5,530 nucleotides of DNA, from contig JAKPAQ010000445.1 in NCBI GenBank assembly GCA_029779385.1, positions 1-5,530 on the forward strand. The letters are read 5' to 3'. Shown here piece by piece: positions 3 to 5,530 of the stretch. This DNA is from Actinomycetes bacterium. Lineage in GTDB: Bacteria; Actinomycetota; Actinomycetes; Propionibacteriales; Nocardioidaceae. A program made the translations under genes and the position numbers. The notes below the pieces were generated by a model, which was given only the letters and a program-made list of their open reading frames with translations, ran no database searches and was not told the origin of the DNA. Position 1 is the stretch's first letter. The number at the start of each line of letters is the position of its first letter.

Positions 3-317
3 TTCAGTGATTTCCGTGGCGTGCTCGGCCGTTACTTCTACTATTATTTGTCGACTTTTCTACGTCCTGTCGCTCTCGCTGGCAGCAATACAGTCACAAT
101 GGAGTCGCTTCGTCGCCCAGTGCTCGCAGATTTCGCAGTAGCTCTGCCACCACTCGATGAGCAGGCCAATACCGTCATATATCTCGATGACCGCACATCG
201 AAGATCGACGCTCTGATCGCCGAGTCGGAGAAGTTCATCGAGCTTGCCCGCGAACGTCGATCGGCACTCATCACCGCCGCGGTAACCGGCCAGATCGACG
301 TCCGGGAGGCGTCCTGA
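3..317 (+). CDS. hsdS: Type I restriction enzyme specificity subunit HsdS, C-terminal fragment (cut by window edge)
   Basis: HsdS is the DNA-recognition subunit of type I RM enzymes. It binds two HsdM and positions them on a bipartite target. Only the last 104 codons are present, in a frame open to the left edge, so the start lies outside; the GTG at 21 is internal. Visible are the end of the second target-recognition domain and the conserved segment after it: LPPLDEQ (nt 144-164), then a helical stretch with RTSKIDALIAESEKFIELAR, then ERRSALITAAVTGQID (nt 252-299) close to the C-terminus. This 'PPL-EQ ... kID-Li ... ERR-ALI-AAVTGqIDvr' pattern is a hallmark of HsdS C-terminal conserved regions, whose long helices contact HsdM. 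The stop (315-317) shares one base with the ATG of the next gene. The family is certain enough; target specificity cannot be inferred from this piece. Confidence 0.93.
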   Translation, partial: FSDFRGVLGRYFYYYLSTFLRPVALAGSNTVTMESLRRPVLADFAVALPPLDEQANTVIYLDDRTSKIDALIAESEKFIELARERRSALITAAVTGQIDVREAS

Positions 318-1033
318 TGCTGTTGGCATTCGTCGATGAGTCCGATCACGGCGACTTCCGTTGTTTCGGGGCGATCCTGGCGGATGAGAATGCAACGAAG
401 CAGCTCACCGACCAGCTCAACGCACTGATGATCCAGGCGAGCAAGGATTATGGAATACCCGCGACCACCGAGTTCCATGCTCACCCTATGTTTCATGGCA
501 AAGAGGCGTGGGAGGGTGTTGGTCAACGTGCCCGGGCGAACCTGCACGAGAAGGTCATCGACGCTATCGTGGGGGCCGATGTCACTCTGCTGCTGCGGCA
601 CGTCAGCGAGCAGCGTCTGCGGGATCGACAGGATCGGCGTGGCTACCCGGACCGGTTCCCACCAGAGCAGGTCTGCTTCCAGCACATTCTGCAACGTGTA
701 GAGAATGTCGCGTCAAGGCAGGGGACGTACGCGCTCGTAATCGCTGACGAACGGGGTGATCGCGAACGCCACCGCGAACGATTCGCGGTCTATCAAACCG
801 ATGGAACTCCCGGCGTCCACCGGCACACCACCCTTCCTTCGCTCCTCGACACTGTTCATTTCGCACCGAGCCATCACTCACGGATGCTGCAGGCAGCGGA
901 CATGTTGGCGTTCACCTACCGCCGATACCAGACGGTCCGCGAGACAGATCATCGTGCGCAGCGAGTGATGGACAGGCTGTGGTCGAAGTTGCAGGACTCC
1001 GGAAAACTACATAGTCCAGGCGGATGGCCGTGA
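317..1033 (+). CDS. DUF3800 domain-containing protein
   Basis: This is a 238-residue protein of the DUF3800 family, which has no firmly established biochemical role. Family-typical signatures are visible: an N-terminal FVDESD (residues 5-10, acidic D7/E8), an EFHA segment (52-55), a central strand ending in acidic IADERGD (142-148), and the C-terminal APSHHSRMLQAADMLAF segment (183-199) with D195. Acidic residues at the ends of predicted strands suggest a metal-dependent, RNase H-like nuclease fold; this is inference. The length fits the family. The ATG is chosen because GGGAGG (304-309) lies 7 nt upstream and the codon overlaps the hsdS stop (TGATG), which implies translational coupling. DUF3800 genes are often seen in defence islands and near RM genes. 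Here the gene sits between hsdS and hsdR, so an accessory defence role is plausible but unproven. No signal peptide or membrane segment is seen. Confidence 0.85.
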   Translation: MLLAFVDESDHGDFRCFGAILADENATKQLTDQLNALMIQASKDYGIPATTEFHAHPMFHGKEAWEGVGQRARANLHEKVIDAIVGADVTLLLRHVSEQRLRDRQDRRGYPDRFPPEQVCFQHILQRVENVASRQGTYALVIADERGDRERHRERFAVYQTDGTPGVHRHTTLPSLLDTVHFAPSHHSRMLQAADMLAFTYRRYQTVRETDHRAQRVMDRLWSKLQDSGKLHSPGGWP

Positions 1034-1194: not shown

Positions 1195-1208
1195 TAGCGT
1201 CACTCCCG
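1195..1208 (+). promoter_or_regulatory. Putative -10 box and leaderless transcription start of hsdR
   Basis: TAGCGT (1195-1200) fits the actinobacterial -10 pattern TANNNT and is followed by exactly 7 nt before the hsdR GTG at 1208. No purine-rich ribosome-binding site precedes that GTG (the upstream bases are CACTCCC). This geometry puts the transcription start on the start codon itself, the arrangement of leaderless mRNAs common in mycobacteria and relatives. A -35 element is not convincing at the expected distance. This is an inference from spacing only. Confidence 0.45.
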
Positions 1209-3148
1209 TGGCGCAGCATAACGAGATCGAGTTCGAGCGGGAGTTCGCCGAGTACCTCGCGGCGCACGGCTGGCTGTATTCGATGAACGACACCGGCTAC
1301 GACAAGGAACGCGCCCTGTTCCCTGCCGACGTGCTCGGCTGGCTGCGCGATACCCAGCCCGAACAGGTGGACAAGGTCATCAAACCGGGGTCCAAGGACG
1401 TCGCCAAGCAGGAACTCCAGCTGCTGGACCGGCTCGTGAAGGTGCTTGATCTGCCGTTGGCCAACGGCGGCGGCACCCTGAACGTGCTGCGCAACGGGTT
1501 CTCACATCTGTCGGGCAAGTTCGCGATGTGCGTATTCCGGCCCGAGTCGACACTGAACGCCAAACGCAACACCGATCATGCGGCGGTGCGGCTGCGAGTG
1601 ATGCGGCAGGTGCACTTTTCCACCGCCGACAACCGGTCGGTGGATCTGGTGTTCTTCGTCAACGGACTGCCTGTGGCCACAGCCGAACTCAAAACCGACT
1701 TCACCCAGTCGGTTGCGGACGCGATCACTCAGTACCGCGCCACCCGCCTGCCCAAAGATCCGAAGACCGGGCTGGTGCAACCTCTGTTCCTATCCGGTGC
1801 CCGCGCGCTGGTGCATTTCGCCGTCTCCAACGATGAAGTGTGGATGACCACCCACCTCGTCGGTGAGAAGACCCACTTCCTCCCGTTCAACCGGGGCACC
1901 GAGGACGGCGGCGCAGGAAACCTATTGAACCCGAACGGTTCCCGATCCTCGTATCTGTGGGAACGGGTGTTGCAGCGTGATGCGTGGCTCAACATTCTGG
2001 GCCGGCTCATGTACATCAAGCACGAGTCGAGTACCGACCCGATCAGCGGCAAGACGACCAAGACGGCGACGCTGCGGTTCCCGCGGTTTCACCAGTGGGA
2101 AGCGGTCACCGAACTCACCGCAGCTGTCACCGCCGAAGGTGTCGGGCGGCGGTACCTGATTCAGCATTCGGCCGGGTCGGGAAAAACCGATTCGATTGCG
2201 TGGACCGCGCACCGGATGGCGCGGCTACAGGTGGACAACACCAAGGTGTTCGACTCGGTCATCGTCGTCACCGACCGCAACGTCCTCGACGCGCAGTTGC
2301 AGGATGCGATCAAACAGATCGACAACGATCAGGGCATCGTTGTGGCGATCGACCAGACCGAGGCCACCAAGGCCGGGGGTTCCAAGTCGTCGCTGCTGGC
2401 GAAGGCGTTGACCGATGGCAAGTTGATCATTGTCGTCACCATCCAGACCTTCCCCTTCGCGATGGCCGCGATCCGGCAGCACAAGGGTCTCAAGGGTAAG
2501 AAGTTCGCGGTGATCGCTGACGAGGCGCACTCCTCCCAGTCCGGACAGATCGCCGGCAAACTCAAAGCGGTCCTAACCGCCGAGGAACTGCAAGACATCG
2601 AGGACGGCGGGGAGATCGACGTCGAGGCGATCCTGGCCGCCGAGGCTACCGACCGCGCCGACTCGTCGAACATCTCCTACTTCGCGTTCACTGCCACACC
2701 GAAAGGCAAGACCCTCGAACTGTTCGGGCGCCGGCCCAGCCCAGACGAGCCGCCGGCACCGTTTCACGTGTACACGATGAAGCAGGCGATCGAAGAGGGC
2801 TACATCCTCGATGTCCTCACCGGCTATCACAGCTTCACACTGGCCTTCCAGATCGGTCAGAAGGTGGCCGACGAAGAGCACGAGGTCGACCAGGCCGAAG
2901 CCACGAAGGCGGTGATGAAGTGGGTCAAGATCAACCCGCAAACCATCTCCCAGAAGTCGGCGATCATCGTCGAACACTTCCGCGAGAACGTCGCCCACCT
3001 GCTCGACGGACACGCCAAAGCGATGGTGGTGGCTGACTCCCGCAAGGCCGCCGTCCGCTACAAACTCGCGATCGACGACCACATCACCAAGAAGGGCTAC
3101 GGCTACCGCACCCTGGTCGCGTTCTCCGGCAGCGTCATCGACCCCTAG
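1208..3148 (+). CDS. hsdR: HsdR N-terminal part: nuclease and first helicase lobe, ending at the premature TAG
   Basis: This is a 646-residue product if translation stops at the amber codon. Residues 1-80 hold the HNEIEFEREF...HGWLYS opening typical of the family, which supports the GTG start. The PD-(D/E)xK nuclease is seen as D146 in SVDLVFF and E160-L-K162 in ATAELK (nt 1685-1693). The helicase part shows a Q-like FHQWEAV (294-300), Walker A SAGSGKT (321-327, nt 2168-2188), VIVVTDRNVLDAQL (351-364), DEAH (438-441, nt 2519-2530) and motif III FTATP (494-498, nt 2687-2701). Residues from about 510 enter the second RecA lobe, with AMVVADSRKAAVRYK (605-619) and VAFSGS (637-642). Motifs V and VI are lost. 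The fragment could still bind ATP and perhaps HsdM, but should not translocate or restrict. Confidence 0.85.
   Translation: MAQHNEIEFEREFAEYLAAHGWLYSMNDTGYDKERALFPADVLGWLRDTQPEQVDKVIKPGSKDVAKQELQLLDRLVKVLDLPLANGGGTLNVLRNGFSHLSGKFAMCVFRPESTLNAKRNTDHAAVRLRVMRQVHFSTADNRSVDLVFFVNGLPVATAELKTDFTQSVADAITQYRATRLPKDPKTGLVQPLFLSGARALVHFAVSNDEVWMTTHLVGEKTHFLPFNRGTEDGGAGNLLNPNGSRSSYLWERVLQRDAWLNILGRLMYIKHESSTDPISGKTTKTATLRFPRFHQWEAVTELTAAVTAEGVGRRYLIQHSAGSGKTDSIAWTAHRMARLQVDNTKVFDSVIVVTDRNVLDAQLQDAIKQIDNDQGIVVAIDQTEATKAGGSKSSLLAKALTDGKLIIVVTIQTFPFAMAAIRQHKGLKGKKFAVIADEAHSSQSGQIAGKLKAVLTAEELQDIEDGGEIDVEAILAAEATDRADSSNISYFAFTATPKGKTLELFGRRPSPDEPPAPFHVYTMKQAIEEGYILDVLTGYHSFTLAFQIGQKVADEEHEVDQAEATKAVMKWVKINPQTISQKSAIIVEHFRENVAHLLDGHAKAMVVADSRKAAVRYKLAIDDHITKKGYGYRTLVAFSGSVIDP
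3146..3148 (+). other. Premature in-frame amber stop codon in hsdR
   Basis: TAG at codon 647 of hsdR lies between CCC and TCC. Codons on both sides belong to the same frame and the same conserved block (...SVIDP, stop, SGPDSLTEAS...), so the lesion is a substitution rather than an indel or deletion. The position normally holds a sense residue between the 'FSG-v-DP' and 'TEa-MNPG' elements, typically acidic as I recall the family. GAG to TAG is one possible one-base route. Confidence 0.9.
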
Positions 3149-3163
3149 TCCGGTCCCGACTCG

Positions 3164-4321
3164 TTGACCGAGGCGAGCATGAACCCGGGTATCAGTGACC
3201 TGCGGACCGCGTTCACCGGCGAGCAGTTCACAGTGATGATCGTGGCCAACAAGTTCCAGACCGGCTTCGACCAGCCCCTGCTGTGCGCCATGTACGTCGA
3301 CCGCAAACTCTCCGGCGTCACCGCGGTACAAACACTGTCCCGACTCAACCGCACCTACCGAACCCCTTCGGGCACAACAAAAACTGCAGCAATGACGCAG
3401 GTCGTCGACTTCGTCAACGACCCCGCCGGCATCCGTGAGGCGTTCGAACCGTACTTCACCGACGCATTCCTGGAAACCGAAACCGACCCCAACCTCGTAC
3501 ACGACCTGTCCACCAAACTCGACACCGCCGCCATCTACACCCCCGACGAAATCGACCGGTGCGCACAGGCATACGTGCAGGGCAAACACAACGCTCTCTC
3601 CGCGGCCGTCGACCACGGCAAGAAGCGATTCGCCGACCGCTACACCGCCGCCCTCACCGCCAACGGCGGCGAAGGCGACAAACCCGAACTCGCCGAACTC
3701 GACATGTTCCGTCATGACGTCGGATCCTTTGTGCGGCTCTACGACTTCATGTCCCAGATCATCGACTACGGCGACCCCGACCTCGAGAAGAAGCAGATCT
3801 ACCTGCGCTACCTCGAACGCGTCATCAGACCCGACAACTACACCGCCGAGATCGACCTGTCCGACATCATCCTCAAAGAAGTCGCCCACAAGGACAAGGG
3901 CAAGACCGACATCAGCCTCGGCACCAAGGTCGGCCTGACCGGGATCACCGCCGCAGGATCCGGAGAGAAACGCGACCCCACCATGGTCGCCTTCCAGCAA
4001 GTCCTCGACCGCCTCAACGAACTGTTCGGCTCCGAAGACTTCTCCACCTCCCAGAAGACCTCGTTCATCGAATCCCTGCTGCAAACCCTGCTCGCCGACC
4101 GCGACCTCGTCCAGCAGGCCAAGGTCAACACCCCCAAACAGTTCACCGAATCCCCCGACTTCGAATTCGCCGTCACCGGCGCCGTCGCCGACAACCACGG
4201 CGCCCACGAAAAGATGAGCAACTACTTCTTCAGCGACGCACCCGGACGTACTCACCTGATCTCCGACATCGCCAAGTGGTTCTACCAGGTCGTCACACAT
4301 GAGGAGGCACAGCAGTCGTGA
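3164..4321 (+). CDS. hsdR: HsdR C-terminal part: helicase motifs V/VI and C-terminal helical domain
   Basis: This is the remainder of hsdR in the same frame as 1208-3148. The first usable start after the amber codon is TTG 3164, or ATG 3179 with only a weak GAGGCGAG just upstream, so independent translation is doubtful. Numbering from the full gene, motif V is ANKFQTGFDQP (680-690) and motif VI QTLSRLNRT (708-716, nt 3329-3355), followed by VDFVNDPAGI. Then comes the helical C-terminal region, including SFVRLYDFMSQIIDYGDPDL and LRYLERVI, which in type I enzymes helps dock HsdR on the methylase core. The tail (VADNHGAHEKMSNYFFSD...) is complete and shows no decay, so the nonsense change is probably recent. 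The stop overlaps the next gene by 4 nt. Codons are overwhelmingly C-ending, more so than in neighbouring genes. Confidence 0.75.
   Translation: MTEASMNPGISDLRTAFTGEQFTVMIVANKFQTGFDQPLLCAMYVDRKLSGVTAVQTLSRLNRTYRTPSGTTKTAAMTQVVDFVNDPAGIREAFEPYFTDAFLETETDPNLVHDLSTKLDTAAIYTPDEIDRCAQAYVQGKHNALSAAVDHGKKRFADRYTAALTANGGEGDKPELAELDMFRHDVGSFVRLYDFMSQIIDYGDPDLEKKQIYLRYLERVIRPDNYTAEIDLSDIILKEVAHKDKGKTDISLGTKVGLTGITAAGSGEKRDPTMVAFQQVLDRLNELFGSEDFSTSQKTSFIESLLQTLLADRDLVQQAKVNTPKQFTESPDFEFAVTGAVADNHGAHEKMSNYFFSDAPGRTHLISDIAKWFYQVVTHEEAQQS
4301..4307 (+). promoter_or_regulatory. Ribosome-binding site of the methyltransferase-like gene, inside the hsdR end
   Basis: GAGGAGG lies inside the last hsdR codons, 10 nt before the GTG at 4318. 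Together with the GTGA overlap it decides the start and indicates translational coupling of hsdR and the downstream gene. If ribosomes stop at the hsdR amber codon, this strong site could still allow independent initiation. Confidence 0.7.
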
Positions 4322-5406
4322 AGGATAGGGGCCCACATCCTGCGCTACGGACGATTCTCAATGACACGACGGAGGTCTCCTATTCTGACCTGGACTATGA
4401 GATCGCCGGTCGCGAATCCACTACCAGTGATTCGCTTGCTCGGTTGCTCACCATCGGCTGTCTCAGTCGCTTGGATCCCGACCGAACCTCGGTTGATATC
4501 TGGGATCCTGCCGCAGGTATCGGCTACGCGGGCTTCCTGATCGCTGACGCCCTTCAATCTGTGGGAGTCCAAGTGAAGTACCGCGGCCAGGACATCAACG
4601 AACAAGCGGTGTCGGCATGTCAGCGCCGTTTCGCAGAGGTATCGGACGCCAAGGTGAACCTCGGCGACACTCTGGCACACGACACGTTCCCCGATTTCGA
4701 GGCGGACCTTGTCATCGTGGATGCACCGTTTGGCCTGAGTTGGGAGACTTCAGCGGATGCAATAGAAACTCGGCGTGAGTCTGGTGCGTTCCACTTCGGG
4801 CTACCGCGAGTCTCGGACGGAACCTGGCTATTCATCTCCCTTGCACTTGAAAAGTTGCGACCCGCGGAACAGGGAGGTGGCCGTGTAGCCGCTCTCGTTG
4901 CTCCAGCGGCACTTAGCAGCGTCGACGGTGCCGCCATCCGGGAACGAATCGTGGAAGCGGGGCTACTTGAATCTGTGACCCGGCTCCCAGCCGCCCTCGC
5001 ACCAAACACTCAGATAACCTTATATCTCTTAACATTCACCAATCGCTCTCCGAGCTCGGGGCGTGGCAAGGTAGCGGTTGCCGATATGCAAACGCAGTAC
5101 ACGACTGAGCGTCGACATCGATCGATGACACCGATAAGTTTCAAAGAACTCGAATCCGGTCTACGAACTGGCAAACCAGGAAAACGCAACCGAGTAATCG
5201 ACGTCCAGCAGTTAATCCGAAGAAGTGCGGAGCTATCCCGGACTACCCCCGAAGGACTACGATTCTCGTGGCGGATAGACACATACAACGATACACCAAT
5301 CGATGATTCACTGCTGAAACTTCGCTACTCTGACCTAGATCCGCGAGTAGTGGTGGGAGTTCCGGCGTTTGAGAAGACAAAAGTGCTTGTCCTGGTTGAT
5401 AATTGA
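4318..5406 (+). CDS. N-6 adenine DNA methyltransferase-like protein (HsdM-related, probably 3'-truncated)
   Basis: This is a 362-residue protein of the N6-adenine methyltransferase superfamily. Motif I (SAM binding) is DPAAGIGYAGF (63-73) against the usual DPACGSGGFL, followed by RGQDIN (89-94), which matches the SAM-contacting G-(E/Q)-(E/D)-(I)-N strand of HsdM. Motif IV is DAPFG (135-139) instead of N/DPPF/Y. Downstream, DGTWLFISLALEKLRP, GGRVAALVAP and IRERIVEAGLLESVTRLPAAL follow the HsdM order. The roughly 150-residue N-terminal helical domain of HsdM is missing: only about 60 residues precede motif I. GTG 4318 overlaps the hsdR stop (GTGA) and has a good RBS, so it is an operon partner of hsdR. 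It may be an accessory or orphan methylase, or a degenerate one. Codon use is less GC-biased than hsdR, with an AT-richer 3' third. The ORF ends 40 nt before a transposase-like start, so its C-terminus may be lost or replaced by insertion sequence DNA. Confidence 0.75.
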   Translation: MKDRGPHPALRTILNDTTEVSYSDLDYEIAGRESTTSDSLARLLTIGCLSRLDPDRTSVDIWDPAAGIGYAGFLIADALQSVGVQVKYRGQDINEQAVSACQRRFAEVSDAKVNLGDTLAHDTFPDFEADLVIVDAPFGLSWETSADAIETRRESGAFHFGLPRVSDGTWLFISLALEKLRPAEQGGGRVAALVAPAALSSVDGAAIRERIVEAGLLESVTRLPAALAPNTQITLYLLTFTNRSPSSGRGKVAVADMQTQYTTERRHRSMTPISFKELESGLRTGKPGKRNRVIDVQQLIRRSAELSRTTPEGLRFSWRIDTYNDTPIDDSLLKLRYSDLDPRVVVGVPAFEKTKVLVLVDN

Positions 5407-5530
5407 GGTTGCGAAGCCAAAAACTATCAGACCGGGAGAAGCACCTTGTCGGTGAAAAGTGTACGCCGCGGGAGGAGGAAGGCCAAGCGTGTGCGGATCG
5501 GTGAGCCCGACCCGTCGCTGACCGGCCGGG
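5407..5530 (+). mobile_element. Probable left end of an insertion sequence (IS1380-like), running off the window
   Basis: The tentative boundary lies between roughly 5390 and 5430, because the next ORF resembles a transposase N-terminus. The terminal inverted repeat and target duplication cannot be identified, since the right end is outside the window. A start as early as CCTGGTTGATAATTG (5391-5405) is possible; the last residues of the methyltransferase ORF would then be IS-encoded. Low certainty on type and exact edge. Confidence 0.35.
5446..5530 (+). CDS. Probable transposase N-terminus (IS1380-type), cut by window edge
   Basis: An open frame starts at TTG 5446 and is still open at the window end, giving 28 codons. 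GGGAGAA (5434-5440) lies at good spacing before the TTG; GTG 5452 is a second option but sits further from the RBS. The peptide starts MSVKSVRRGRRKAKRVRIGE and continues PDPSLTGR. A basic N-terminus followed by 'vRiG-pDpSLT' resembles, from memory, the opening of actinobacterial IS1380-family DDE transposases (which continue with a G-aAv-eL-drLg segment). The catalytic domain is outside the window, so the assignment rests on a short stretch and could be wrong. Confidence 0.45.
   Translation, partial: MSVKSVRRGRRKAKRVRIGEPDPSLTGR

Follow-up and report, generated by a model that had tools for sequence, protein, structure and literature searches.

The analysed stretch of DNA, called the window here, is 5,530 nucleotides long. 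At its centre is an hsdR gene (1208-4321, + strand) that is divided by an in-frame amber codon and flanked by further genes on the same strand. The features are as follows:

3..317 (+): last 104 codons of hsdS, the gene continuing beyond the window edge (PADLOC Specificity_I, 7.7e-26)
317..1033 (+): gene for a DUF3800 protein of 238 aa, between hsdS and hsdR (Pfam PF12686, 9.7e-15)
1208..3145 (+): N-terminal half of hsdR, 646 aa, with the nuclease domain, the first helicase domain and the start of the second (Pfam, TIGR00348)
3146..3148 (+): premature amber codon, codon 647 (one residue at this point in 114 of 116 full-length relatives)
3149..4321 (+): C-terminal half of hsdR, 390 codons and TGA, covering what is left of the second helicase domain as well as the C-terminal region (Pfam T1R_D3-like)
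3164..3181 (+): earliest in-frame candidates for a restart past the stop, TTG 3164 and ATG 3179 (putative starts)
4318..5328 (+): 5' part of an N6-methylase-like gene, about 337 codons (Pfam N6_Mtase, 5.6e-20)
5329..5530 (no strand assigned): terminal part of a repeated element, interpreted as an insertion sequence, that cuts the methylase gene (recurrence at contig ends)

Sequence and domain content of the two hsdR halves

Numbered from the GTG at 1208, the TAG at 3146-3148 is codon 647. It is preceded by 646 codons and followed by 390 codons in the same frame up to the TGA at 4319-4321, and it is the sole internal stop in that frame. The N-terminal half, whose last residues are FSGSVIDP, matches the Pfam models HSDR_N, ResIII and SWI2_SNF2, with the HSDR_N nuclease domain (PF04313, 2.3e-12) at residues 128-217; the C-terminal half matches T1R_D3-like (8e-11). 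Both helicase domains are accordingly represented, SWI2_SNF2 and ResIII in the first half and T1R_D3-like in the second, and the TAG falls between the matched stretches. The hsdR family model TIGR00348, of 674 positions, is covered in order by the two halves, from 104 to 547 by the N-terminal half (7e-38, score 130.6) and from 597 to 668 by the C-terminal half (1.2e-9, score 37.3). Neither half alone reaches the cut-off of 284.55, and the gene does not encode a single uninterrupted HsdR polypeptide, being broken at the TAG. Searches against solved structures gave no match at 1e-5 for the N-terminal half, and weak matches to EcoR124I-type HsdR (best 0.0067) for the C-terminal half.

A stop-free stretch of 390 codons arose in 2 of 2000 simulations under a third-order model of the window, which makes an open frame of this kind improbable as a chance event. 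Since a long antisense frame (587 aa) also spans the TAG site, it is homology rather than the openness of the frame that establishes the C-terminal half as coding. The GC content by codon position is alike in the two halves (0.62/0.40/0.85 and 0.60/0.40/0.84). The initial annotation had described a single amber codon dividing an otherwise undecayed hsdR, and this description holds: the frame is the same on both sides, both halves match HsdR and the full C-terminus is in place.

The stop site in relatives and the origin of the TAG

The protein relatives considered are the best 120 of 7999 scored, of which the 116 with at least 950 aa were treated as full-length. Exactly one residue stands between the two halves in 114 of these 116, the remaining two having separations of 2 and -60. 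The alignment to intact HsdR homologues that had been proposed as a check on codon 647 thus places a single residue there. Four residues occur in this column, whose variability is moderate (69th percentile).

At the DNA level, 80 of 344 genome loci were kept. Their hsdR is in one clean frame in 76, carries a stop or frame break in three (L025, L032 and L063) and is cut by a contig end in one (L066); at the site of the window's TAG, none of the 80 has a stop. L063, from Williamsia, has an hsdM match of full length upstream of its broken hsdR. L025 has one in-frame stop in the N-terminal half of hsdR, and HsdM was not found upstream of it. A search with the relative P0003 across 401 genomes of the family brought up more copies with stops, for example one with a TGA in genome G134. 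Since three of the 80 loci are broken, none of them by a stop at the window's site, and further copies carry stops, hsdR loss recurs in the family at a low rate and at different places.

Three database products bear on whether the TAG is a real allele. P0001 is a 646-aa product, and its cluster holds four member sequences on 78 contigs (the largest of 405,400 bases), which may include the window's own contig and may all go back to repeated assembly of a single strain. P0121 is a 380-aa product of the C-terminal half (seven member sequences, two contigs) whose first residue corresponds to ATG 3179 and which differs from the window's C-terminal half by one residue; it very probably derives from DNA with the same break, because an uninterrupted gene would be called as a protein of about 1036 aa. 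P0002 is an intact sister of 1036 aa, found on one contig, with 97.5% identity to the window over the N-terminal half and 96.9% over 386 aligned residues of the C-terminal half. A sequencing or assembly error might be considered, given that only one DNA copy of the TAG was read here and that P0001 and P0121 are known as proteins; however, P0001 represents 78 contigs, and P0121, with its one differing residue, implies a second source carrying the break. Taken with the intact sister, these products make a one-off sequencing error, the artefact which the initial annotation had set against its own reading, an unlikely origin of the TAG, and we regard error of either kind as extremely improbable.

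Age of the stop and selection on hsdR

The window and P0002 differ at 16 of 646 positions in the N-terminal half and at 12 of 386 in the C-terminal half, 7 of the 12 lying at residues 1010-1032. We polarised these differences with P0003, leaving out the last 20 residues of the C-terminal half. By this count, 58 of the 64 N-terminal and 58 of the 63 C-terminal differences of the window from P0003 are common to P0002, while the window and P0002 differ from each other at 16 and 8 positions, respectively. Judged by P0003, the new state is in the window at four N-terminal positions and one C-terminal position and in P0002 at 10 and three, the rest being undecided. Of the 16 N-terminal differences, 14 cluster at residues 383-472, a pattern which suggests that recombination may have taken place within hsdR. 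Near-invariant columns are changed in the window at 0 of 270 positions in the N-terminal half and at 2 of 150 in the C-terminal half (one and two, respectively, in P0002), and two or more such changes in the C-terminal half occur in 17 of 115 relatives. As few changes have accumulated since the split from the intact sister, the stop appears to be young, a nonsense allele without further decay. The claims that the gene has not decayed and that the event is recent are both upheld by the large share of differences from P0003 that the window has in common with intact P0002.

Substitution rates were compared with those of relatives, among them the intact L001-L004 (described below). Ka/Ks between the window and L001-L004 is 0.14-0.16 for the first 370 codons of the C-terminal half and 0.08-0.10 for the N-terminal half; for the C-terminal half it is 0.13-0.17 between the window and L006, L024 and L130, and 0.03-0.11 among L001-L004 themselves. 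With L004 as the outgroup, the C-terminal half has changed at 24 nonsynonymous to 37 synonymous sites in the window line and at 15 to 40 in the L001 line, and the window line exceeds its sister in nonsynonymous changes in this half in all four comparisons made. The raised Ka/Ks of the window's C-terminal half could reflect relaxed selection. However, the pairs of L024 with L001 and with L002, all of them open frames, reach 0.20 for the same half, and 58 of 63 differences are shared with intact P0002; hence, most of the nonsynonymous excess is older than the stop.

These values also bear on possible readthrough or suppression of the stop, by which some full-length HsdR would be made. The C-terminal half is undecayed and shows long-term purifying selection against L001-L004, and the TAG stands in a moderately variable column, so that several residues would be tolerated at this point. 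Nevertheless, youth explains the absence of decay equally well, with an intact sister at about 97% identity, and a stop at this site is absent from all 80 genome loci. As recency suffices to account for an undecayed C-terminal half, readthrough is not needed as an explanation, and we consider it very improbable.

A further alternative is that translation terminates at the TAG and restarts at ATG 3179, with the two halves cooperating as a split HsdR. This ATG lies 30 bases past the TAG with a GAGG five bases 5' of it, and the 380-aa database protein begins at its residue. Against this, a gene caller would choose ATG 3179 regardless, and its methionine requires no role as a start, because the stretch is coding, with TEANMN at this place in P0003 and P0004, both intact relatives. 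Moreover, in intact relatives the site of the break falls after the SWI2_SNF2 match and before the T1R_D3-like match, probably within the second helicase domain, and a split is unlikely to be tolerated there. We therefore hold a split HsdR to be most improbable. It is likewise very improbable that a leaky amber or a coupled restart at ATG 3179 yields low or conditional amounts of working HsdR and thereby acts as a translational dial with methylation kept; a leaky stop would constitute a natural control of the restriction level.

Genes upstream of hsdR

The hsdS gene accompanies hsdR in the window, where its last 104 codons are present at 3-317; the Pfam Methylase_S match of this tail (4.6e-4) is slightly under the cut-off. 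The DUF3800 gene recurs at the same position in two Williamsia loci, L024 and L063, with 82% and 87% identity, and was not found upstream of hsdR in the other 78 of the 80 genome loci, some of which have little upstream sequence. The hsdR is broken in two of the three DUF3800-bearing loci (the window and L063), numbers too small to carry meaning. Among the papers surveyed, one mentions both DUF3800 and restriction-modification, once each. Of the 74 relatives whose upstream sequence extends over 3.5 kb or more, 73 have HsdM there, and the window itself contains no HsdM. The proposed retention of HsdM and HsdS is visible only in part: HsdS is represented in the window by its tail, and HsdM would lie outside it.

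A methylase gene cut by a repeated element

The GTG at 4318 of the N6-methylase-like gene overlaps the hsdR stop codon (GTGA). Of the 70 genome loci with sufficient sequence, four (L008, L017, L029 and L064) have such a gene after hsdR, as does the Gordonia plasmid pJH63-1 (L129), and in all five a second N6-methylase-like gene comes next. The alignment of the window's gene ends at codon 339 with L017 and at codon 337 with L029, and extends to codon 352 only across gaps (L008 and L129). Motif IV of the first gene, for which NPPF/Y is usual, is DAPF in the window; three of the five relatives have DAPW, and the remaining two have DPQW and EPPW. The third-position GC of the gene (0.58 versus 0.84-0.85 in hsdR) suggests a separate origin.

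Bases 4300-5530 were searched in 59 genomes from the Gordonia alkaliphila genus and bases 5329-5530 in 401 genomes. The window's own locus was recovered neither here nor with the whole window in 8 genomes of the Williamsia genus, with bases 1-1200 in 6 genomes or with P0003 in 401 genomes of the family. A stretch of about 125 bases beginning at 5329 is, however, found again with 98-100% identity at four contig ends of G390, a genome from the Gordonia alkaliphila genus search, and the flanks differ among the three copies inspected. The first 28 bases of the element recur less than 130 bases from three further contig ends of G390, two of which proved on inspection to have other sequence after the 28 bases, as expected for the opposite end of an element with a terminal inverted repeat. 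The repetition at several contig ends leads us to interpret the element as an insertion sequence, of which no transposase is seen. In plasmids it was found neither by blastn of bases 5380-5530 nor by tblastn of the 26-aa start of a possible reading frame. Among weak matches to 5479-5530, the best, L147, has surrounding frames that are not transposase-like by inspection. IS1380, considered as a candidate family, was not supported.

The operon hence carries two lesions, the TAG in hsdR and the element in the methylase gene. In this respect the initial annotation was right about the hsdR stop but overlooked that the next gene, the methylase, is also broken by an element near 5329.

Probable loss of restriction at the locus

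Taking these observations together, we consider it highly likely that these genes form a type I restriction-modification operon of a Gordonia-like actinobacterium, that its hsdR has acquired a recent nonsense mutation, and that restriction has been lost here. The link to Gordonia follows from the closest named relatives of hsdR and from the insertion sequence held in common. The gene order is hsdS, DUF3800, hsdR and the N6-methylase-like gene, with hsdM presumably upstream. Translation of hsdR would stop within the second helicase domain, at 646 residues, and a product with the nuclease domain, the first helicase domain and part of the second would be incapable of translocating DNA and thus of restriction. 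With translation ending at that point, there would be no working translocase-nuclease and the locus would restrict no more, while HsdM and HsdS, if whole, would continue methylation. In type I systems, the loss of HsdR alone is harmless to the cell; the loss of methylation with an active HsdR is not. The second lesion, the insertion sequence in the methylase gene, fits relaxed selection on the operon. With a recurring nonsense allele, an intact sister and a broken neighbouring methylase, the locus would be a clear illustration of restriction loss in type I systems.

Comparison with known systems

Among phages, no near match was found, and protein mode gave only four phage records, all under 60%. 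Viral contigs gave no match to a 37-base string across the stop and contain hsdR relatives at 18 loci, the best at 83%. One contig filed as viral (L082) has an hsdR relative (83% over the N-terminal half) with an HsdM match upstream. The longest near matches in plasmids are about 80% identical over hsdR.

The intact hsdR genes of Gordonia and relatives, L001-L004 (L002 being Gordonia alkaliphila), share the frame of the window's gene, with 87-90% identity over the N-terminal half and 81-83% over the C-terminal half; unlike the window, they have a sense codon at the stop site. The operon on plasmid pJH63-1 of Gordonia sp. JH63 resembles the window in having an N6-methylase-like gene (59% identical) directly after hsdR. 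There, however, the hsdR is whole (sharing 53% and 45% identity with the two halves in the window), as is the methylase gene (482 aa), which is followed by a second one (351 aa), whereas the window's methylase gene is cut.

Stops in hsdR are a known kind of lesion. For Staphylococcus aureus RN4220, PMC5399793 reports that a premature stop in hsdR makes its type I system defective. Stops named in PMC7557576 lie in the target domains of hsdS, and that account is for this reason no precedent for a stop in hsdR. The window shares with RN4220 the premature hsdR stop that goes with a defective type I system there; it differs from that laboratory strain, which belongs to a different phylum, in that the next gene of the operon is broken too.
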